From Ramlibacter sp. (lineage in GTDB: Bacteria > Pseudomonadota > Gammaproteobacteria > Burkholderiales > Burkholderiaceae_C): a DNA stretch of 8,375 bases. Below are positions 1-8,375 of the stretch, piece by piece. Position 1 is the stretch's first letter. Every line of letters starts with the position of its first letter. The position numbers were made by a program, and so were the translations under genes. The notes beneath the pieces were generated by a model that was not told the origin of the DNA, searched no databases, and saw only the letters and a list, made by a program, of their open reading frames with translations. The stretch covers positions 1-8,375 of the forward strand of contig JANXVP010000086.1 in assembly GCA_025351615.1 (NCBI GenBank). Reading direction: 5' to 3'.

Positions 1-506
1 TGTGCCACGGTTTGGCTTGTGGGGTTATCGGCAACTTCCCTCGCGCGCCTGGCGGCTTCTTCGGCCTCCTGCTTTTCTTCCTCATCGAACAGACCCAGGA
101 ATTTGGCGCTGGCCAGCTGACGCAGCATGTTTTTGGGGATCGGGTCCGGCTGCGAATAATCGTCGATGTAGGTGTCGAGCCGGTCCATCACGTTGAAATG
201 CGGATCGCTGAACAGCTTCTTCATGGCTGCGTTCTTCACCTCGGGCGCCACGCCGCGAGCGGCGAATGGGCGGAAGTCGGATTCGGCGGTAAGCGCCTGC
301 GCGTCTTCAAGGGTGAGGGGGGGCGGTTCGGCGGTAACACGCTCCACGTCGACGGGCGGCGCGGTCGACGTCTGGATTGCGGCGTTCGCGGCAAGCACAG
401 CTTCCGGGACAACCGGGTGCTGCGGCAGCTGCTCCGGCGCTGCCGGCTGGCCATCCTTCGCATCCAGCTTGCGCTTTGACCAGCGGCCCAAAAAACCGTC
501 AGCCAT
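1..506 (-). CDS. DUF3306 domain protein, formate dehydrogenase-cluster accessory (partial, 3' end outside window)
   Basis: Translated from the complement, the frame stays open from the ATG at 506 to the left edge (about 168 residues), so the C-terminus is missing. The protein starts MADGFLGRWSKRKLDAKDG, the usual start of DUF3306 proteins. An Ala/Pro-rich linker follows, then a conserved-looking core around residues 75-140 with FRPFAARGV, KNAAMKKLFSDPHFNVMDRLD and YIDDYSQPDPIP, and a Glu/Ala-rich charged tail (EEEKQEAEEAARRAREVAD). No signal peptide or membrane segment is seen, so it is probably cytoplasmic. Its start codon overlaps the 3' end of the DUF3305 gene by 8 nt, which implies translational coupling. 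DUF3305/DUF3306 pairs are known next to TorD-like chaperone, ferredoxin and formate dehydrogenase genes in Burkholderiales. The molecular function is unknown. The family call is by recognition of motifs, not by a search. Confidence 0.85.
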   Translation of the reverse strand, partial: MADGFLGRWSKRKLDAKDGQPAAPEQLPQHPVVPEAVLAANAAIQTSTAPPVDVERVTAEPPPLTLEDAQALTAESDFRPFAARGVAPEVKNAAMKKLFSDPHFNVMDRLDTYIDDYSQPDPIPKNMLRQLASAKFLGLFDEEEKQEAEEAARRAREVADNPTSQTVA

Positions 507-1044
507 TGCCGCCGCCGAATTTCTTTTCTGTGCTCACCGCGGCCGGATTGCCGAAGCGATCCTGCAGCGATTTAAAGCTATCGGGCCGCTTGCGCCTTTT
601 GGGCTCCAGGACATGGTGCTCGTCGATGAAGGCGCGCATCCACTCCACCACGTCGGGGGGCGCCGGAACCTGCTCGACGGTTTCCTGGGCATCGAGCCAG
701 CGGCCGGCGTCGTGGTAGCTGAGGGACACCATGGTCGGACGGGCCAGCGGCTCGTCAGAAAGGGTCGGCTCGTCCTCCATTCGCCACAGCACGAACCAGC
801 CAGGCGCCGCGGTGGTCGCATTGAGGTAATAGCCTTCGGCGTCGTCCCGGAACAGTTCGACCACAAACCCCGGGTGCAGCCAAAGCTCCTCCTGGTCGTT
901 CTTGCGCATCAGGCGCGGCTGTCCGCCGAATCCCGGTTCCTGCGCAATCACCTCCGAGAGCATCCAGCGCCACGGCTGCCACGGGTTGTCGATGTGCTCG
1001 CGGCGCATGACGACCGCGACGCCGATGGACGGACGTTCAGCCAT
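499..1044 (-). CDS. DUF3305 domain protein, formate dehydrogenase-cluster accessory
   Basis: A 181-residue protein beginning MAERPSIGVAVVMRREHIDNP. The early VAVVM-R and WQPWRW region (about residues 9-29) matches the family pattern. The middle contains LWLHPGFVVELFRDDAEGYYLN and a Trp-rich PGWFVLWRM segment (about 82-91). Near the C-terminus, PPDVVEWMRAFIDEHH is followed by a basic patch (LEPKRRKRPDSFKS). No signal peptide or TM segment is visible, and the length is normal for the family. It is the first gene of a minus-strand unit, with DUF3306 directly after it (8-nt overlap). Known family context is the assembly or function of a molybdenum/tungsten formate dehydrogenase; the biochemical role is not established. 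No strong Shine-Dalgarno or promoter was found upstream. The ATG was chosen because it gives the conserved N-terminus and lies just inside the divergent intergenic region. Confidence 0.85.
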   Translation of the reverse strand: MAERPSIGVAVVMRREHIDNPWQPWRWMLSEVIAQEPGFGGQPRLMRKNDQEELWLHPGFVVELFRDDAEGYYLNATTAAPGWFVLWRMEDEPTLSDEPLARPTMVSLSYHDAGRWLDAQETVEQVPAPPDVVEWMRAFIDEHHVLEPKRRKRPDSFKSLQDRFGNPAAVSTEKKFGGGNG

Positions 1045-1122
1045 TCAACACTTCGCGCGAGAGCGTCGGCGCCCGGTAAAAATCGCAAGGTGGCTCGGTA
1101 TGACAGACATCGGAAAATGCTA

Positions 1123-1156
1123 ACAGGTTGCGGCGGCTCCAAGGGTAAACACCTGT
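1123..1156. repeat. Short inverted repeat ACAGGT...ACCTGT in the divergent intergenic region
   Basis: ACAGGT at 1123-1128 and ACCTGT at 1151-1156 are exact inverted copies separated by 22 nt. They sit between the divergent DUF3305 and YVTN-protein genes. Such an arrangement could be an operator for a dimeric regulator, but six-base arms can arise by chance. No function is claimed. Confidence 0.25.
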
Positions 1157-1218
1157 CAGCCGACGCCGACAAGGCTGAGCTTGCGCGCGTGTCGGCCGGG
1201 GTCTGCCGGCACGGGGTG

Positions 1219-1233
1219 GCAAAAATTTTTTGC
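1219..1233. promoter_or_regulatory. A/T-rich palindrome upstream of the candidate ECF promoter
   Basis: GCAAAAA and TTTTTGC form a perfect 7-bp inverted repeat around a single T. It is a sharp AT island in otherwise GC-rich DNA. It ends 18 nt before the GGAAT element of the candidate promoter, so it could act as an UP-like A/T tract or a protein-binding site. It is unlikely to be a terminator, because the arms have no loop and no gene ends just before it on either strand. Confidence 0.4.
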
Positions 1234-1251
1234 GTCCCGGGTCGTCCCTGT

Positions 1252-1280
1252 GGAATGAAACCGCTTCGCGCCGCCTCTTA
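1252..1280 (+). promoter_or_regulatory. Candidate ECF sigma-factor promoter for the YVTN-to-sorB operon
   Basis: GGAATGA at 1252-1258 resembles the ECF/RpoE-type -35 element (GGAACTT-like). It is followed, after 17 nt, by TCTTA at 1276-1280, which resembles the -10 element (TCTGA-like). Transcription would start near 1287, leaving a leader of about 22 nt before the ATG at 1309. The spacing is what ECF promoters require, and the downstream operon encodes its own ECF sigma factor, which fits autoregulation. This is a match by eye; no transcript data are available. Confidence 0.5.
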
Positions 1281-1308
1281 CCCTTTCAACATCCATTCCA
1301 GGGCTCCC

Positions 1309-2703
1309 ATGAACGAACTGAACAACGACAGGCGCGGCTTCCTGAAACTCGCCGCTGCCCTCCCGGCAACGGCCGCAAGCTCGTGGGCCATGGCGCAGGC
1401 GCCCGCAGCGGCGCCAGCAGTTGCTGCTTCCAGCGACATCGCGCCGCAGGACCGGGTCTTCATCACCAACGAAGACTCCAACACCATCAGCGTCATCAAC
1501 CCGGCGAGCAACACGGTCGATACGACGATCAACCTGACGAGCTTCGACGAGGATGCGCGCCCGCCTTTCCGTTACGTCACCGGCGGGGTCATGCCGGCGC
1601 ATTCCGCGATGATCCACAAGCCGCTTTACCACGGCTGCATCGACGCCCACGGCGCAGTGCCCAATCCGGATGGGACCCTGCTGGCCACATCCGGGCGCGG
1701 CAGCAGCAACATCTACCTGATCGACGCAGTCAATCGCAAGGTGCTCGGCAACCTGCCCAATCCGCAGGCTGGCCCGACCACCAACCCCGAGCGGCTGTCG
1801 AGCGGCATCCTGCTGGGCCGCGAACCGCACGAACCCACCTTCACCCGCAACGGCCTGGAACTGTGGGTCACCATCCGTGGCGAAGACCGGATCGCGATCC
1901 TCGACGTGGAGCTCGCGCGCAAGCAGGTCACGGGCACGCCTTCCAACGCGGTGCGCGGCTACCTGCCCACTCTGAACGGGCCGGCCCAGGTCTGGTTCTC
2001 CAGGGACGGAGCGCTGGCCTTCGTCGTCAGCCAGAAGGTGGCGATGTTGGAGATCTTCAAGGTCAATGCCGACGCACAAGGCTATTCCCGTCCCGAGCGC
2101 CTGCGCCTGGTCGACATCAGCATGCACGACAAGCCGGCCTTCACACCGTTCCAGAAACTGTCGCCCGACGGCAGCCAGATGTGGCTATCGCACAAGCTGG
2201 CCGACGCCGTGTCGATTGTGTCGGTGCGCGATCCGGGCCAGGTGCTGGCGACGATTGCGCTGGGCGAGATGGCCAGGCCCAACCACCTGGAGTTCGTCGA
2301 CAACGCGCGCGGCCAGGTGACCTACATGAGCCTGGCGCGGGTCGACGATGGCGGCCCCAACGGCGCCGCATCGAGCCGGCTCGCCATCATCGACCGCTCC
2401 GTGCCGCCAGCCCAGCAGAAGGTGGTGGGCATGGTCTATACCGGTGGCCGCGAGTCGCACGGCATCTGGACCAACCCGGCCAACAACCTGCTGTACGTTG
2501 CGCACGAACAGGACGAGCTGCCGGGTACCGCCAACGCCGGCCAGACCGTGTGCTCGGCCTTCGATGTGTCCAATCCGCTGCAGCCGAAGATGATCACGCA
2601 GATTCCGCTGGGCGCGCTCAAGCTGCCTTCGGGCGAGCTGCGCAACAAGAAGAGCATCAACCTGGTGTACGTGCGGCCCGGCACCCGGGGCCAGACGGCA
2701 TGA
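1309..2703 (+). CDS. Tat-exported YVTN-family beta-propeller protein
   Basis: A 464-residue protein. The N-terminus [12 protein letters not shown] (R8, R9) is a twin-arginine signal, followed by a hydrophobic stretch and a likely cleavage site after AMA (residue 29), so the folded protein should reach the periplasm. The mature part is a series of propeller-blade strands: [16 protein letters not shown] (50-65), [33 protein letters not shown] (183-200), [17 protein letters not shown] (290-306) and [10 protein letters not shown] (394-403). Histidines recur near blade starts (H98, H103, H108, H114, H174, H273, H295, H326, H384, H399), and C110 lies in [12 protein letters not shown]/lactonase-like propellers have varied roles, so the activity cannot be named. 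It is the first gene behind the candidate ECF promoter and overlaps the DUF305 gene by 4 nt (ATGA). The open frame extends far upstream, but the ATG at 1309 is required for the Tat signal. Confidence 0.85.
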
Positions 2704-3071
2704 CGGACCACTCTGCCCAACATGCGGCTGGCGCCAAGGCAGCCGGCGCCGCGCCCCGCAACAAATTCGAAGCCGACATGGACGTCGGCATGGCCCGCAT
2801 GATGCAGGACATGCACAGCCCGGGTTACACCGGCAATGCCGACCGCGACTTCCTGGCAATGATGATCCCGCACCACGAAGGCGCCGTCGACATGGCCCGG
2901 CTGGTCCTGATCCACGGCCGCGATCCGCTGGTGCGGCAGCTCGCCGAGGAAATCATCGCCAGCCAGACCGTGGAGATCGCCGGTATGCGGGCGCGGATGG
3001 CGGTGCTCCAGAAAGGCCCGAACCCCGAACCGGGCGGCTATCCGGCGCTCGGTTCGGTGCGTGGCGGTTGA
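2700..3071 (+). CDS. DUF305 family protein without an evident signal peptide
   Basis: A 123-residue protein with the DUF305 signature. D50-F51 leads into [18 protein letters not shown] (51-68, with H58 and H59), followed by the downstream pattern [19 protein letters not shown] and M-R-A-R-M. The segment before the core is Met-rich (M27, M31, M34, M35, M38, then M54, M55, M65). DUF305 proteins have a four-helix, ferritin-like fold, and some (cyanobacterial CopM) bind copper. Most are exported, but this one starts [16 protein letters not shown] with no hydrophobic leader. The start is fixed by the ATGA overlap with the preceding stop codon, and no better in-frame start offers a leader. It lies 9 nt before the sigma-factor gene. 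It is inferred to be part of the same operon, acting in the cytoplasm or exported together with the propeller protein. The substrate is unknown. Confidence 0.85.
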
Positions 3072-3080
3072 AGTCAGGCC

Positions 3081-3632
3081 ATGTTCCAGAGCGCCGAATC
3101 ACGCTACAACCAATGGGTGAGTGACCACTATCGCTTCCTGTTGCGCAGCGCGTGGGCCATGACTGGCTCACGAGCGGTGGCCGAGGACGTGGTGCAAGAC
3201 TGCTTCACCAGCGCCTGGAAGCACCGCAGCCAGCTGCGCAAGGCCGAGCTGGCGCGGGCCTGGCTGTTCCAGATCATGCGGCGCAGTGCGCTGCGCCACA
3301 TGGCGCCGCCGCCGCTCTCGCTGGACGAGAACGAAGAGGCCTTCAACGTCGCTGCGCCTGCGTCGGGCGCCGACGACCGGCTAGACGTCGTCAAAGCCCT
3401 GACCCGCATCGCGCCCATTCACCGCGAGGTGTTAGTGCTGTTTTATTTCGACGACATGCCGACAGCCCGCATGGCCGAGGCGCTGGAGGTGGCGCCCGGC
3501 ACCGTGCTGTCACGGCTGTCACGTGCGCGCGAGGCGCTGAAGGCGGCCATGGCGCCGCCAGCCTTGCCAGCAGCAGCGTCGCCGCGGGAGCCGGCGTCCG
3601 GGGGCAAGGTCACCGCACTGCGCAAGAGCTGA
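3081..3632 (+). CDS. ECF-family RNA polymerase sigma-70 factor
   Basis: A 183-residue protein with the two ECF domains. Region 2 covers about residues 9-75: YRFLLRSAWAMTGSRAVAEDVVQDCFTSAW shows the core-binding/-10 recognition helix (AEDVVQDCF at 34-42), followed by ARAWLFQIMRRSALRH. Region 4 covers about 105-158: IAPIHREVLVLFYFDDM, then the helix-turn-helix TARMAEALEVAPGTVLSRLSRAREALK that contacts the -35 element. The two are joined by an acidic linker. An Ala/Pro-rich tail of about 24 residues extends past region 4. One nucleotide separates its stop from the putative anti-sigma gene, the standard arrangement for such pairs. It probably directs transcription from the GGAATGA-N17-TCTTA site upstream of the operon. 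The ECF group was not determined. Only a weak AGG is seen before the start codon, so translation may be coupled to DUF305. Confidence 0.93.
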   Translation: MFQSAESRYNQWVSDHYRFLLRSAWAMTGSRAVAEDVVQDCFTSAWKHRSQLRKAELARAWLFQIMRRSALRHMAPPPLSLDENEEAFNVAAPASGADDRLDVVKALTRIAPIHREVLVLFYFDDMPTARMAEALEVAPGTVLSRLSRAREALKAAMAPPALPAAASPREPASGGKVTALRKS

Positions 3633-3633
3633 C

Positions 3634-4218
3634 ATGGAAAACAACGAATTTGCTATGAGCCCTGACGAGACCGAGTTCGACTTGCGCTCGCGCGCCGAAC
3701 TGGCGCTGGCCTGCGACCCCGGCCAGCCGCCCGCCAGCCTGTTTCGCCGCACGCCCGTGCTGCGGCGCATGAGCGTCCAGCGCGTTCTCGCGGCGGTGCT
3801 GCTGCTTGGAAGCGGGGGCGGCGGCGTGCTCGCCATGCGTCCGCCAGAACTTGTGCGCGGTGCAATCGATCACGAATCGCACGAGCGAATGCTGCGCGGC
3901 AGTTTCGTGGACACCAGTGCGCTGTTGCGCCATCTGGGCCTGGCGTCGCGCCAAACCGTTCCCGGCTCGGTGCAACTGATGCGCCGATGCGATCTCGGCG
4001 GCCAGTGGGTCTACCATCTCACCACCTATTTCGACAAGGCCGGCATGGTCACCGTGTTCGCCTTCGACCGGCCGGTCACGCTGTCCGAGGGCAGTGGCTG
4101 GTGGGGCAGTGCGTACTGGCAGGTGGTCACCTCCCATGACGGCCATCCGCTGGTGCTGGTGGCCGACACGAAAGCCGCCCTGACAGCGGCCCGGGCGCAG
4201 TTCGACCGGTCTGCCTGA
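3634..4218 (+). CDS. Putative anti-sigma factor, single-pass membrane protein (DUF3379-like)
   Basis: A 194-residue protein that starts one nucleotide after the sigma-factor stop. Residues 1-47 are a short cytoplasmic part with acidic residues (SPDETEFD), and RSRAELALACDP resembles the start of membrane anti-sigma proteins. Residues 48-67 are one hydrophobic, Gly-rich TM helix preceded by Arg residues (RR at 44-45, R50), giving N-in topology. Residues 70-194 form a periplasmic domain with ALLRHLGL, a cysteine at 119 (RRCDLGGQWVYHL) and GMVTVFAFDRPV. This C-terminal pattern (Cys, HL, G-x-VTVF) recalls DUF3379 proteins. There is no HxxxCxxC zinc motif. The role is inferred: it would hold the ECF sigma factor at the membrane until a periplasmic signal arrives. 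A second possible start is M8 (position 3655). The family match is moderate; the position is the strongest argument. Confidence 0.75.
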   Translation: MENNEFAMSPDETEFDLRSRAELALACDPGQPPASLFRRTPVLRRMSVQRVLAAVLLLGSGGGGVLAMRPPELVRGAIDHESHERMLRGSFVDTSALLRHLGLASRQTVPGSVQLMRRCDLGGQWVYHLTTYFDKAGMVTVFAFDRPVTLSEGSGWWGSAYWQVVTSHDGHPLVLVADTKAALTAARAQFDRSA

Positions 4219-4245
4219 GCCCCCACCCGTTTGCTGGACAACATC

Positions 4246-4251
4246 CAAGGA
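4246..4251 (+). promoter_or_regulatory. Strong Shine-Dalgarno site of the sulfite oxidase gene
   Basis: A near-consensus AAGGAG-type site (CAAGGAGATC) lies about 6 nt before the ATG at 4258. It decides the start: an in-frame TTG at 4231 lies upstream of this site and would put non-signal residues before the Tat leader. It is the best ribosome binding site in the operon, suggesting that the enzyme is made in larger amounts than the regulators before it. Confidence 0.8.
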
Positions 4252-4257
4252 GATCCC

Positions 4258-5481
4258 ATGGCCGACATCGACACCCACCAACGGCTTCGCCGCAGGCTGC
4301 TCGCGGGCGGCGCGGGCGCTCTCGCAGCAGGCATGGCAGGCCGCAGCTTCGCGCAGGCCGCCACGGTCGAATTGCCGTTCGCCAACGGCAGGCGCGAACT
4401 GGTGGCCTTTCCGGAAAAGCGGCCCCTGATCGTGCTGACGACGCGCCCGCCGCAACTGGAAACGCCGTTCGAGGTGTTCAACCAGGGCATCGTCACGCCC
4501 AACGACGCGTTCTTCGTGCGGTACCACAACTCGGGCGTGCCGCGCTCGGTCGATGGCGACAAGCACGTGATCAAGATCGGCGGCAATGCCGCGGGCAAGC
4601 CCTACGAGCTGACGATGGCGCAGTTGCGCACGCAGTTCAAGCCAGTCGAAATCCTGGCGGTCAACCAGTGTTCGGGCAACGGCCGCGCGTTGTTCAATCC
4701 GCGCGTGACGGGCGGCCAGCTCGGCAACGGAGCAATGGGCAATGCCCGCTGGGTTGGCGTGCCGCTCAAGGACGTGCTGGCGGCAGCTGAAGTCAGGAGC
4801 AGCGCCCGGCAAGTGACGTTCGACGGGCTCGACGTCGCCGTTTTCGGAGGCGGCGATTTCGTCAAGGCGCTGGACGTGAACCATGCAATGGACGGAGAGG
4901 TCATGCTGGCCTGGCAGATGAACGGAGCCGACCTGCCGATGCTCAATGGCTATCCGGTCCGGCTGGTGGTGCCCGGTTACTACGGCACCTACTGGATCAA
5001 GCACCTGTCGGAGATCGCGGTGGTGGACCGGGAATTCGACGGCTTCTGGATGAAGCCCGCCTACCGCGTTCCCGACAACGCCTGCGCCTGCGTTGAACCC
5101 GGGACGGCGCCGACGTCCACCCGCCCGATCGGCCGCTTCAACGTCCGCTCGTTCATCACCTCGCTGGCCGATGGCGCCCGGGTGCGGGCCGGGGACCAGG
5201 TGGTGGTGCGAGGCATCGCTTTCGATGGCGGCCAGGGCGTGCGGGAAGTCGCCTTTTCCTCCGACGGCGGCCAGAGCTGGCGCGGCGCCCGGCTGGGTGC
5301 CGACATGGGTCGCTATTCGTTCCGCGAATTCAGCTTCGGGTTGACGCCGGCCAAGGGCGGGCACGACCTGCGGGTGCGGGCCTGGAACCGGTCCGGCGAC
5401 AGCCAGCCGGTGGAGGCGCTCTGGCAGCCCGCCGGCTACATGCGCAACGTGGTCGAGTCGGTCAAGGTCGTGGCGGTGTGA
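4258..5481 (+). CDS. sorA: Tat-exported sulfite oxidase-family molybdoenzyme (SorA-like sulfite dehydrogenase)
   Basis: A 407-residue protein, the length of SorA-type enzymes. The N-terminus has RLRRRLLAGG (R11-R13), a hydrophobic segment and FAQA near 31-34, a Tat leader fitting export of a cofactor-loaded protein. The molybdopterin domain (about 50-265) shows FFVRYHNSGVP (R88, H90), NQCSGNGRALF with the Mo-ligating Cys138, GQLGNGAMGNARW (154-165), KALDVNHAMDGEVML and GYYGTYWIKHL (240-250). An Ig-like dimerisation domain follows (about 290-407; SSDGGQSW, LRVRAWNRSGD). No heme b domain is present, so electrons must pass to a separate carrier, which suits the cytochrome gene that follows. The known reaction is sulfite + H2O to sulfate + 2 electrons. 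Sulfite as the substrate here is inferred; related family members act on other compounds. It starts 39 nt after the putative anti-sigma gene. Confidence 0.88.
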   Translation: MADIDTHQRLRRRLLAGGAGALAAGMAGRSFAQAATVELPFANGRRELVAFPEKRPLIVLTTRPPQLETPFEVFNQGIVTPNDAFFVRYHNSGVPRSVDGDKHVIKIGGNAAGKPYELTMAQLRTQFKPVEILAVNQCSGNGRALFNPRVTGGQLGNGAMGNARWVGVPLKDVLAAAEVRSSARQVTFDGLDVAVFGGGDFVKALDVNHAMDGEVMLAWQMNGADLPMLNGYPVRLVVPGYYGTYWIKHLSEIAVVDREFDGFWMKPAYRVPDNACACVEPGTAPTSTRPIGRFNVRSFITSLADGARVRAGDQVVVRGIAFDGGQGVREVAFSSDGGQSWRGARLGADMGRYSFREFSFGLTPAKGGHDLRVRAWNRSGDSQPVEALWQPAGYMRNVVESVKVVAV

Positions 5482-5486
5482 GGACT

Positions 5487-5834
5487 ATGCAGATGACATC
5501 CACTCCCCATCTCGCCGCCGCCGTTGTTGCCGTGGCGCTTACCTTCGCCAGCTCTGCGCAGGCCGTTCCCAAGACCATCGAACTGCCGCCCGACCCGGTC
5601 CAGCTTACGCCGAGCGCCCTGCCCGGCTACGCCCGGGCGCAGGCAAACTGCGTTGCTTGCCATTCCGCCGAGTACATGCTGTACCAGCCGGCGACAGCGC
5701 CCAGGACCTACTGGGACGCCATGGTCAAGCGCATGAAAGCCGTGTTCAACGCTCCCATCCCGGACGCCGATATCCCGGTCATCGTCGACTACCTCGCGAG
5801 GACCTACGGCGCAGAGCAGGATCAAAAACCCTGA
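5487..5834 (+). CDS. sorB: Small exported mono-heme cytochrome c (SorB-like sulfite dehydrogenase subunit)
   Basis: A 115-residue protein from the ATG at 5487. A Sec signal peptide covers residues 1-26 (hydrophobic LAAAVVAVALTFA, then SSAQA before VPK). The mature part of about 90 residues has one heme c motif, CVACH (C55, C58, H59), followed by SAEYMLYQP. The distal Met ligand is probably in WDAMVKRMKAVFNAPI (M79 or M83), and the C-terminus VIVDYLARTYG is the closing helix typical of small class I cytochromes. It starts 5 nt after the sorA stop, so the two are co-translated. In SorAB enzymes the small cytochrome takes electrons from the Mo subunit. The start is uncertain: GAGG at 5480-5483 lies 3 nt from the ATG at 5487 but 9 nt from the one at 5493, so translation from 5493 is quite possible (two residues shorter). 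Confidence 0.87.
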   Translation: MQMTSTPHLAAAVVAVALTFASSAQAVPKTIELPPDPVQLTPSALPGYARAQANCVACHSAEYMLYQPATAPRTYWDAMVKRMKAVFNAPIPDADIPVIVDYLARTYGAEQDQKP

Positions 5835-5984
5835 AAAGTAACCAGCCAGGCCGCCATCGCCGCCAGGCGACCTCAAGATTCGAGACCAACTCGAGCTGGC
5901 GCGCAATGACTACTCAGCCGTTTTTCCGCTCTGCGCTTCGGCGGTCGGCAAGTTCGTCGGGAAATTCTGAAGCCCCGCTGGCCG
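5835..5984. other. Convergent intergenic spacer between sorB and apbC
   Basis: This 150-nt spacer separates two genes that point at each other. The only hairpin noted is TCGCC/GGCGA (5857-5870, 4-nt loop), which is not followed by a T tract. A CGTTTTTCC stretch near 5920 has no convincing stem before it. No gene, repeat or clear intrinsic terminator could be supported, so termination here may be Rho-dependent. Confidence 0.5.
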
Positions 5985-7073
5985 TCAGGTGTCCTTGGAA
6001 ATCTTGATCGACGGAAACTTCGACGAGAAGTCCTTGGCCTTGGCCGCGATCTTGATCGCCACCTGGCGCGCGACGGCCTTGTAGATGCCTGCCACTTCGC
6101 CGTCCGGGTCCGCGACCACGGTCGGCTTGCCGCTGTCGGCCTGCAGACGGATCCTGATGTCGAGCGGCAAGGCGCCGAGATAATCCATCGCGTAGTCGGC
6201 AGCCATCTTCTTGCCGCCGCCCTCGCCGAAGATATGTTCGACATGGCCGCAGTTGGTGCAGATGTGGACCGCCATGTTCTCGACGATGCCAAGGATGGGC
6301 ACGCCCACCTTTTCGAACATCTTGATGCCCTTGCGGGCGTCGAGCAGCGCGATGTCCTGGGGCGTCGTGACAATTACGGCGCCGGTCATGGGCACGCGCT
6401 GCGACAGCGTCAGCTGGATGTCGCCGGTGCCAGGCGGCAGGTCGACGATCAGGTAATCCAGGTCCTTCCAGTTGGTCTGGCGCAGCAGTTGCTCCAGCGC
6501 CTGCGTCGCCATCGGGCCGCGCCAGATCATGGCTTCGTCCTGGTTCACCAGGAAGCCGATCGACATCACCTGCACGCCGTAATTTTCCAGCGGTTCCATG
6601 GTCTTGCCGTCAGGGCTCTCGGGCCGCCCGTCGATGCCCATCATCATCGGCTGGCTCGGGCCATAGATGTCCGCGTCCAGCAGGCCGACAGACGCACCTT
6701 CGGCGGCCAGGGCCAGCGCCAGGTTGACGGCCGTCGTGCTCTTGCCGACGCCGCCCTTGCCCGAAGCCACGGCGACGATATTCTTGACGCTCGGCAGCAA
6801 GGCCACGCCACGCTGCGCCGCATGGGCGACGATGTTCATGCTGATGTTGGCGGACACATTGCCGACGCCGGAAACCCGTTTGGCGGCAGCCACCAGCGCA
6901 GCGCGCATGGCCGGAATCTGGCTCTTCGCCGGGTAGCCGAGTTCGACGTCGAAGGAGACGTCCGACCCGTTGATCTGGAGGTTTTTCAGGGCCTTGGTGC
7001 TGACGAAGTCCTTGCCGGTGTTCGGGTCGGTGACTGACTGCAGCGCTTCGAGTAGTTGTTCCGGAGTTGCCAT
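5985..7073 (-). CDS. apbC: Iron-sulfur cluster carrier protein ApbC (Mrp/NBP35 family P-loop ATPase)
   Basis: A 362-residue protein. Residues 4-80 are a MIP18/DUF59 domain (LLEALQSVTDPNTGKDFV). The ATPase domain starts near 97, with the deviant Walker A motif SGKGGVGKST (104-113) carrying the two lysines K106 and K111, the switch-like LLDADIYGPSQP (131-142) and the Walker B-like LIVDLPPGTGD (208-218). The cluster-binding motif CTNCG (C272, C275) is followed by HVEHIFGEGGG. All hallmarks of the cytoplasmic Fe-S carrier are present. It binds a [4Fe-4S] cluster at a dimer interface and passes it to apo-proteins. An AGGA lies 8 nt upstream of the ATG (complement of 7082-7085), which supports the start. 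It is divergent from metG, an arrangement common in Burkholderiales. It is probably a housekeeping gene, unconnected to the adjacent sulfite operon except by position. Confidence 0.96.
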   Translation of the reverse strand: MATPEQLLEALQSVTDPNTGKDFVSTKALKNLQINGSDVSFDVELGYPAKSQIPAMRAALVAAAKRVSGVGNVSANISMNIVAHAAQRGVALLPSVKNIVAVASGKGGVGKSTTAVNLALALAAEGASVGLLDADIYGPSQPMMMGIDGRPESPDGKTMEPLENYGVQVMSIGFLVNQDEAMIWRGPMATQALEQLLRQTNWKDLDYLIVDLPPGTGDIQLTLSQRVPMTGAVIVTTPQDIALLDARKGIKMFEKVGVPILGIVENMAVHICTNCGHVEHIFGEGGGKKMAADYAMDYLGALPLDIRIRLQADSGKPTVVADPDGEVAGIYKAVARQVAIKIAAKAKDFSSKFPSIKISKDT

Positions 7074-7088
7074 GGGTCGTGTCCTGTT

Positions 7089-7119
7089 GCGACAGCAGTG
7101 TAGCGACGTCCTTTAAAAT
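7089..7119 (+). promoter_or_regulatory. Possible sigma-70 promoter of metG
   Basis: GCGACA (7089-7094) and TTTAAA (7112-7117) are 17 nt apart and each match the sigma-70 consensus at 4 of 6 positions. The overlapping TAAAAT (7114-7119) is a better -10 but gives longer spacing. The leader would be about 20-25 nt. TTTAAAAT is the only AT-rich octamer in the 72-nt gap between apbC and metG, so a promoter here is likely even if the exact boxes are uncertain. Confidence 0.4.
7097..7102 (-). promoter_or_regulatory. Possible -10 element of the apbC promoter
   Basis: Read on the minus strand this is TACACT, 4 of 6 matches to the sigma-70 -10 consensus, placed about 24 nt before the apbC ATG. No good -35 box is seen at the right distance, so this is weak. 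It would overlap the metG promoter region. Confidence 0.25.
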
Positions 7120-7145
7120 CGACGCTTCCCTCTGGAAATCCCCCA

Positions 7146-8375
7146 ATGTCCGCACCGCGCAAGCTTTTCGTCACAACCGCCCTGCCCTACGCCAACGGCA
7201 AATTCCACATCGGCCACATCATGGAGTACATCCAGGCCGACATCTGGGTACGGCACCAGCGGATGCAGGGCAGCGACGTGAATTTCGTCGGCGCCGACGA
7301 CGCCCATGGCGCACCGATCATGATCGCGGCCGAGCAGGCCGGCATGACGCCCCAGCAGTTCGTTGCCGGGATCGCCGCCGGGCGCAAGGAATACCTCGAC
7401 GGCTTCCACATCGCGTTCGACAACTGGCACTCGACCGACAGCGCTGAGAACACGGAGCTGGCCCAGGCCATCTACCACGCGCTCAAAGGCAACGGGTTGA
7501 TCCAGACCCGGACCATCGAGCAGTTCTTCGACCCCGAGAAGCAGATGTTCCTGCCCGACCGCTTCATCAAGGGCGAGTGTCCGCGCTGCCACGCCAGGGA
7601 CCAGTACGGCGACAACTGCGAAGTGTGCGGCGCGGTCTATGCCCCGACCGACCTGATCCATCCCTATTCCGCCTTGTCTGGCGCCACGCCGGTGCTCAAG
7701 AGCTCGGAACACTTTTTCTTCCAGTTGTCAGATCCGCGCAGCGTGGCGTTTCTGGAGCGCTGGACGCAGGACGGCCGCTTGCAGCCCGAGGTCGCGAACA
7801 AGGTCAGGGAATGGTTCTCCGTGCGCACCAACGCCGACGGCACCACCAGCGAAGGCCTGGGCGACTGGGACATTTCGCGCGACGCGCCCTACTTCGGCAT
7901 CGAGATTCCCGACGCACCGGGAAAATATTTCTACGTGTGGCTGGACGCCCCCATCGGCTACCTGGCGTCGCTGAAAAACCTGCTGGACAGACGCGGCCAG
8001 GACTATGACGCCTACATGGCCGATCCAGCGCTGGAGCAGGTCCACTTCATCGGCAAGGACATCGTGACCTTCCACACGCTGTTCTGGCCGGCGATGCTCA
8101 AGTTCAGCGGCCGCAAGACGCCGGACAGCATCTTTGTCCACGGGTTCCTGACGGTGAACAACGGCGAGAAAATGAGCAAGAGCCGCGGCACCGGCCTGGA
8201 CCCGCTGAAATACCTGGCGCTGGGCATGAATCCAGAATGGCTGCGTTACTACATTGCCGCCAAGCTCAACTCGCACAACGAAGACATCGACTTCAATGCC
8301 GATGATTTCCTGGCGCGGGTCAATGCCGACCTGATCGGCAAATACGTCAACATCGCGAGCCGGACGGCGGGCTTC
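7146..8375 (+). CDS. metG: Methionyl-tRNA synthetase (partial, 3' end outside window)
   Basis: The first 410 residues of a class I aminoacyl-tRNA synthetase that attaches methionine to initiator and elongator tRNA-Met in the cytoplasm. Visible motifs are [19 protein letters not shown] (10-28) with the HIGH signature at 21-24, and [13 protein letters not shown]. The zinc-knuckle cysteines are C145, C148, C158 and C161 (CPRCH and CEVCG). [15 protein letters not shown] and [11 protein letters not shown] form the methionine-site region, and EKMSKSRG carries the KMSKS loop at 342-346. The paired-Cys zinc insert places it with the longer E. coli-type enzymes, which usually run near 670-700 residues with a C-terminal dimerisation domain, so roughly 40% lies beyond the right edge. 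The ATG at 7146 gives the expected short N-terminus before the catalytic core. The ribosome binding site is weak (GGAAA about 9 nt upstream). Confidence 0.97.

Follow-up and report, generated by a model that had tools for sequence, protein, structure and literature searches.

The sulfite-oxidase genes of Starkeya novella and Sinorhizobium meliloti are switched on by sulfite, with cognate extracytoplasmic function (ECF) sigma factors as mediators (PMC6527743; PMC3511301; statements on the literature made here rest on parts of the cited papers). The Starkeya genes are divided between two separate loci with two sigma factors and promoters of the −35 GGAAT/−10 CGTC type: sigE-ASF-sorAB, with cognate ECF sigma and anti-sigma genes beside sorAB, and Snov_0990–0993, where the genes for a DUF305 protein (Snov_0990) and a YVTN propeller (Snov_0991) adjoin that for SnRpoE1, an ECF sigma factor that activates both the duf305 and the sorA promoters (PMC6527743, Tan et al. 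2019). The rpoE1 operon of S. meliloti, like many rpoE1-like operons, begins with a lipoprotein_15 gene (PMC3511301, PMC6180224). Betaproteobacterial sigma factors form a third group, in which the sigma gene lies upstream of a sulfite-oxidase gene in Burkholderiales; the accessible text of Tan et al. calls this group unstudied, states that the alphaproteobacterial consensus is absent from it and that a preliminary search gave no close RpoE1 homologue, and describes the mechanism of sulfite sensing as unknown (PMC6527743). Here we describe a locus of the group 3 type, as judged by gene arrangement, within an 8,375-nucleotide (nt) stretch of Ramlibacter sp. DNA (GCA_025351615.1, contig JANXVP010000086.1, positions 1–8,375; hereafter, the window), in which propeller, DUF305, sigma, anti-sigma, SorA and SorB genes follow a single promoter-like site.

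The six genes are tightly packed on the + strand of the window (1309–5834, open reading frame positions). A lactonase/YVTN-repeat, seven-bladed propeller of twin-arginine translocation (Tat) type, identified by family searches and with the twin arginine assigned by eye, occupies 1309–2703, and its stop overlaps by 4 nt (ATGA) the start of a DUF305 protein (2700–3071; PF03713, E 1.4e-17). An ECF sigma factor with sigma-70 regions 2 and 4 (sigma1; 3081–3632) follows after 9 nt, and after 1 nt comes its likely anti-sigma factor of 194 residues (anti-sigma1; 3634–4218), recognized by position, one membrane helix read by eye, and conservation. SorA, the molybdenum catalytic subunit of sulfite dehydrogenase, lies 39 nt further on (4258–5481), and SorB, the c-type cytochrome subunit, another 5 nt beyond (5487–5834), or with a 4-nt overlap if the alternative GTG at 5478 is its start. 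All six genes are thus present as described in a first-pass annotation made from the sequence alone, which had reported a same-strand row with spacings from a 4-nt overlap to 39 nt. Its reading of the row as a sigma/anti-sigma module that controls itself and includes a sulfite dehydrogenase is supported as likely. Both enzyme subunits pass curated models: SorA scores 655 bits with NF052245 (cut-off 600) and matches PDB 2blf_A over its full length (E 2e-155), and SorB scores 107 bits with NF052246 (cut-off 93), matches 2blf_B (E 4e-21) and has a CVACH haem motif, found by eye. The pair follows the subunits of the solved sulfite:cytochrome c oxidoreductase along the mature proteins. The further claim that the propeller and DUF305 protein are foreign to known sulfite systems is not supported in view of Snov_0990 and Snov_0991 beside the sorA-activating SnRpoE1 (PMC6527743), the one paper among the matches listed that combines DUF305, propeller and sulfite. 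Absent from that annotation were the promoter-like site, a relic of a second anti-sigma gene and the SorT/SorU enzymes of most relatives. In contrast to Starkeya, the window has one gene row and one sigma factor, a CTCTT −10 element, and a DUF305 gene that follows the propeller gene and lacks a visible leader. No description was found of propeller and DUF305 genes that share one site with those for sigma1 and SorAB; the supplementary figures of PMC6527743 or PMC3511301 may draw such betaproteobacterial loci.

Alignment across relatives of the DNA 5′ of the propeller and sigma1 genes gave a common stretch, TGGAATGAA...GCGCTCTTG. The corresponding promoter-like site, GGAAT-N18-CTCTT, lies at 1252–1279 on the + strand of the window and, from its conservation across relatives, is the predicted target of sigma1; the accessible text of PMC6527743 reports no promoter consensus for group 3. 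The site was counted in 105 loci, comprising the window, 80 SorA loci (the best 80 of at least 582 confirmed) and sets of 20 and 4 further loci, where loci without sigma1 are those with no tblastn match assigned to it and distances to gene starts are tblastn projections. It occurs exactly in 27 of the 28 sigma1 loci and in none of the 77 without sigma1. Both strands of these loci (1.46 Mb) contain 42 exact matches, versus about 3 expected at equal base frequencies, and the control patterns gave 0–2 matches each (spacings 14–17 and 19–22) and one match (reversed pattern). The site ends 6–29 nt upstream of sigma1 in 25 of the 28 loci; the other three are the window, where it precedes the propeller, L120, where it stands in front of a different gene 1.4 kb upstream, and L117, where it has one mismatch. 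Where propeller and sigma1 occur together, an exact site is found within 150 nt upstream of the propeller in 13 of 15 loci, L016 having one mismatch and L104 a site 1 kb upstream, and all five propeller loci without sigma1 lack such a site (three or more mismatches). No exact site was seen directly upstream of SorT or SorA genes in the 105 loci. In separate scans, L179–L192 had none and the plasmid loci L193 and L194 two copies each.

The site at 1252–1279 is the only one in the window with no or one mismatch. Its genome has seven exact matches to the pattern, and GGAATGAA is read at the window site only. No sigma-70-type promoter was found in 1000–6010, versus 0.4 in shuffles. Since DUF305 and sigma1 are separated by only 9 nt that contain no site, the prediction is that expression of the whole row of six relies on the site at 1252–1279, presumably in a single transcript. 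The first-pass annotation had begun the unit at 1252, where no gene starts; this position is the −35 element. An in-frame ATG at 1255 falls within the site, so that the propeller most likely starts at ATG 1309; starts at 1252 or 1255 were rejected on this ground, and L010, L105, L110 and L111 have an ATG at the equivalent of 1309.

Linkage between the two halves of the row was assessed in a family draw of 299 genomes taken from a larger group, the one draw being searched three times (anti-sigma1, E 1e-8; propeller, E 1e-40; SorA query, E 1e-25). Anti-sigma1 was found in 18 genomes, the propeller in 17 and SorA/SorT-like genes in 74; propeller and anti-sigma1 co-occur in 13 (Fisher p 1e-15) and are adjacent in every one. 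DUF305 adjoins the propeller in all 17 propeller genomes, and a sulfite-oxidase gene adjoins anti-sigma1 in 17 of 18, the eighteenth (G532, L109) having partial SorT and SorU matches. Rare linkage of the propeller and DUF305 genes to the sigma and Sor genes, which the first-pass annotation had named as evidence against its operon, is not what was found: sigma1 and anti-sigma1 stand alongside in 13 of the 17 propeller genomes, 12 of them with a neighbouring sulfite-oxidase gene and G532 with its partial SorT. Among the 80 SorA loci, propeller and DUF305 genes lie beside SorA in 15. The co-occurrence statistics and the promoter-site counts exclude a chance arrangement of the six genes. That propeller–DUF305 and sigma–anti-sigma–sorAB are two unrelated transcription units which merely abut is highly improbable. 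Relatives do have a promoter-like site of their own between DUF305 and sigma1, and each half does occur without the other; against this stand the strength of the co-occurrence, the same sigma1-type site on both halves in relatives, and the lack of any site in the 9 nt of the window.

The relatives revealed a second circuit. An RpoE1-like ECF sigma (sigma2) and a longer anti-sigma (anti-sigma2) precede the propeller in 12 of the 18 anti-sigma1 genomes, which are all 13 with a propeller minus the window, as well as in the Ramlibacter loci L016 and L018; these loci carry SorTU or SorAB, and in L104 a 1.1-kb insertion interrupts the arrangement. A lipoprotein_15 gene stands directly before sigma2 in 14 of 14 two-circuit loci (PF03640 in L112; one match is partial) and a match also in L010; none was found in L040-type loci. 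The S. meliloti rpoE1 operon and rpoE4-sorT likewise combine lipoprotein_15 before an ECF26 sigma with promoters of the GGAAT/CGTC type. A SnoaL-like gene precedes sigma2 in 13 of the 14 loci, and GGAA-N16-20-CGTC or CGTT lies upstream of the SnoaL gene in 10 of 13 regions (lacking in L057 and in L003 and L120, both of the latter with no recorded sigma2). The alphaproteobacterial consensus GGAAT-N17-CGTC has 50 matches in 104 loci, versus 2–15 at other spacings, most of them not before a labelled gene; with spacings 16 and 17 together there are 65, only 24 of which lie within 400 nt upstream of a labelled gene. At L007 (3716–5531), a SnoaL–sigma2–anti-sigma2 group lies convergent and downstream of sigma1–anti-sigma1–SorAB on a contig with neither propeller nor DUF305.

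In Polaromonas glacialis (L010), where the second circuit occurs together with propeller, DUF305 and SorAB, sigma1 is absent and the propeller is not preceded by a CTCTT site. L142 and L143, where propeller–DUF305 has no sigma gene in the flanks examined, have CGTC-type sites 226 and 24 nt upstream of the propeller. As far as these few cases go, promoter type thus appears to follow whichever sigma is present. The alphaproteobacterial group 1 and 2 promoter (−35 GGAAT, −10 CGTC) is absent from the window, where GGAAT is kept and CTCTT replaces CGTC. The −35 element is thus shared. In S. meliloti the promoter of sorT has the sequence CGTCTCTT (PMC6180224, Table 1), so CTCTT may have drifted from a common ancestral box.

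Sigma2 and anti-sigma2 genes are not present in the window, which in this respect differs from the S. meliloti rpoE1 operon; what is found, by tblastn and DNA comparison, is the degraded tail of an RpoE1-type anti-sigma2 gene at about 1135–1212 on the + strand. The L010 anti-sigma2 protein matches it with 47% identity over 49 columns (1075–1212; E 1.5e-5 against the window), and this is the sole match in the whole genome (E 0.007). At the DNA level, identity to P. glacialis is 80% over 56 nt (1156–1211; E 3.6e-10, unrelated places giving 0.004 or worse). No close sigma2 was found in the window's genome (a 91% complete assembly), the nearest sigma2-like match having 38–39% identity. The retained tail argues that the window probably lost the second circuit by deletion of the sigma2/anti-sigma2 pair, and the most fitting reading is that it descends, in shortened form, from a two-sigma locus.

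The enzyme below sigma1 varies. In the 17 other anti-sigma1 genomes of the family, the neighbouring enzyme best matches SorT; three SorT proteins from the family and one from the order scored 653–671 bits (cut-off 570) and one SorU 119 bits (cut-off 100), so that all those tested pass. SorA/SorB follow sigma1 in the window, L003, L004, L005, L007, L016, L018 and L031. Ramlibacter albus (L018, SorAB) and L106 (SorTU) are 92.9% identical over 6.8 kb to near the end of anti-sigma1 and then diverge, which indicates that the enzyme pair is swapped beneath a constant regulatory block. In Rhizobacter sp. SG703 (L012), whose locus has no sigma1, sorA is preceded at a distance of 28 nt by a CGTC-type site (6930–6955), and an RpoE1/RpoE4-type sigma may control sorAB directly there. 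Of the two SorAB loci in Ramlibacter aquaticus LMG 30558 (L016, L024), only one has the sigma pairs.

Anti-sigma1 gave no family above cut-off, and as a named family its 23 members were tried without success, DUF1150 matching weakly in four and DUF3379 in one, none at cut-off. The family is present in Acidovorax. The structure model is of modest quality (predicted local distance difference test 75, predicted template modelling score 0.60), and a fold search returned nothing at E 0.001 or better, with MucB/RseB at 0.14–0.65. Cys119, His80 and His128 are invariant in the window protein and its 120 best homologues. From the helix near residues 46–67 and the cytoplasmic N-terminus (topology by eye), these residues are predicted to be periplasmic.

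For the propeller, the Pfam TAT model gave 16.6 bits, below its cut-off of 22.7; export signals are visible by eye in the propeller, SorA and SorB, and comparison of N-termini by eye showed no leader peptide in DUF305. A single-sequence search found no solved relatives of the propeller, and a profile search returned hydrazine synthase beta, YVTN and lactonase-type proteins. It shares its fold with the propeller of nitrous oxide reductase, whose copper-site histidine ligands may have counterparts among its conserved histidines. Selenium-binding/methanethiol-oxidase propellers were absent among the 50 matches listed, which excludes nothing. The DUF305 protein has the domain and the PHH motif in common with the copper-binding CopM proteins and differs from them in its score, just under the curated cut-off (87.7 bits versus 90), and in having no visible leader.

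Taken together, we consider it probable that the row is one sulfite-responsive operon, the propeller pair included, transcribed by its own sigma factor from 1252–1279. Anti-sigma1 would release sigma1, most likely on periplasmic sulfite, which might attack Cys119, although this step is a guess; sigma1 would then transcribe the six genes. By homology, SorA and SorB would oxidise sulfite to sulfate and pass the electrons to the respiratory chain. The propeller would be exported folded by Tat, probably carrying the leaderless DUF305 along, and the exported pair may form a unit that depends on a metal, perhaps copper, and acts on a sulfur compound closely related to sulfite. Loss of the sigma2 pair would leave both halves of the locus under a single sigma. 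If sulfite switches on the six genes together, the propeller pair would belong to the sulfur-stress defence. A stronger version is decidedly doubtful: that the propeller and leaderless DUF305 are a new copper-loaded periplasmic sulfur enzyme, assembled in the cytoplasm, exported as a complex and making sulfite for SorAB/SorTU, in a pathway placed, after loss of the RpoE1-like circuit, under a single ECF sigma that reads a −10 code of its own (CTCTT).

Several observations weigh against a sulfite-responsive six-gene operon. An order-wide draw had anti-sigma1 in 7 of 300 genomes, the window's own included, and the three other genomes of its genus in the family draw have neither propeller nor anti-sigma1. 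Near-copies are common: clustering at 90% DNA identity reduces the 28 sigma1 loci and two plasmids to 19 groups, of which 7 contain a propeller. The metal idea depends on the conserved histidines and on a DUF305 score below the CopM cut-off. Moreover, propeller and anti-sigma1 are not found together in 62 of the 74 family genomes that have a SorA/SorT-like gene, and the propeller is missing from 5 of the 18 genomes with anti-sigma1; sulfite oxidation therefore does not require the pair. Conversely, at L140, L183–L185, L187 and L189 the propeller pair adjoins sigma/anti-sigma genes with no sulfite-oxidase gene in the flanks examined. Such loci could suggest that propeller and DUF305 aid sensing rather than act as effectors, binding the signal in the periplasm and acting on the anti-sigma as RseB does on RseA; genes co-transcribed with ECF sigmas do often regulate those sigmas (PMC3511301). 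We think this improbable, given the same five genomes in which anti-sigma1 has no propeller and the loci L142, L143, L180 and L188, in which propeller and DUF305 have no sigma nearby.

The signal itself could differ from sulfite. SnRpoE1, the sigma beside the Starkeya pair, responds to tetrathionate (PMC6527743), the likeness of DUF305 to the copper chaperone CopM points to copper, and at L121 (6989–9172) the GGAAT-N18-CTCTT site accompanies a distantly related sigma1/anti-sigma1-like pair (40% and 35%), which is followed by a di-haem peroxidase/MauG-like gene, with no sulfite oxidase in the stretch examined. The main signal may then be tetrathionate, copper or oxidants, SorAB being one of several co-induced defences. 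We regard this as rather unlikely in view of the sulfite-oxidase gene beside anti-sigma1 in 17 of 18 family genomes and of the response to sulfite shown in two alphaproteobacteria by the ECF sigmas cognate to such genes (PMC6527743).

Related propellers extend beyond the family. A phylum draw gave 13 among 349 genomes, and in nine loci from other classes sigma2/anti-sigma2 lie close by in seven, the order DUF305–propeller–sigma–anti-sigma occurs in four of these seven, and SorA-like genes are on the same stretch in four of the nine (L182, L186, L188, L190). The four loci of that order equal Starkeya Snov_0990–0993 in gene content, the likeness being judged by content. Long forms with both site types occur on plasmids, where anti-sigma1 is annotated as a hypothetical protein: pT29A of Methylibium sp. 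T29 (L193) has a two-sigma locus with recombinase genes nearby, and p1-T1 of Acidovorax sp. T1 (L194) one between Tn3-family transposase genes. Massilia phyllostachyos and Pusillimonas minor (L040/L041, 1032–9956) share 8.9 kb at 99.7% identity, and Curvibacter delicatus and Castellaniella defragrans (L057/L063, 593–9011) 8.4 kb at 99.2%, in each case spanning the whole sigma2–propeller–SorAB unit; such near-identity could stem from a recent cross-family transfer or from contamination common to both genomes. At L103 (4474–5607), a second YVTN-like propeller, roughly 340 residues long, has a sigma1-type site upstream, and such a protein, 75–82% conserved, lies near L103, L003, L004, L018, L106, L107 and L109.

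To the left of the operon is a DUF3305 gene (499–1044, − strand), identified by family searches; a related NCBIfam entry, matched weakly and below cut-off, describes a molybdenum-cofactor protein, MobA, that contains a DUF3305 domain. Next to an operon for a molybdenum enzyme, such a gene is a curious neighbour. To the right, an ApbC/Mrp gene lies on the opposite strand, followed by the start of a metG-like gene (by eye). No RNA families at gathering cut-offs and no tRNAs were found in the window, and its short repeats were examined and showed no pattern.

The betaproteobacterial group left open by Tan et al. now has a precise promoter-like site tied to sigma1, and in relatives an RpoE1-like circuit with CGTC-type sites is placed beside the betaproteobacterial sigma1. 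Propeller genes have a CTCTT site where sigma1 is present and a CGTC-type site in two loci without it, and discrimination of the two sigma factors by the −10 element becomes testable. The invariant cysteine of anti-sigma1 is a candidate for sulfite sensing, and the propeller–DUF305 pair, which had no assigned function, is now tied to sulfur stress.

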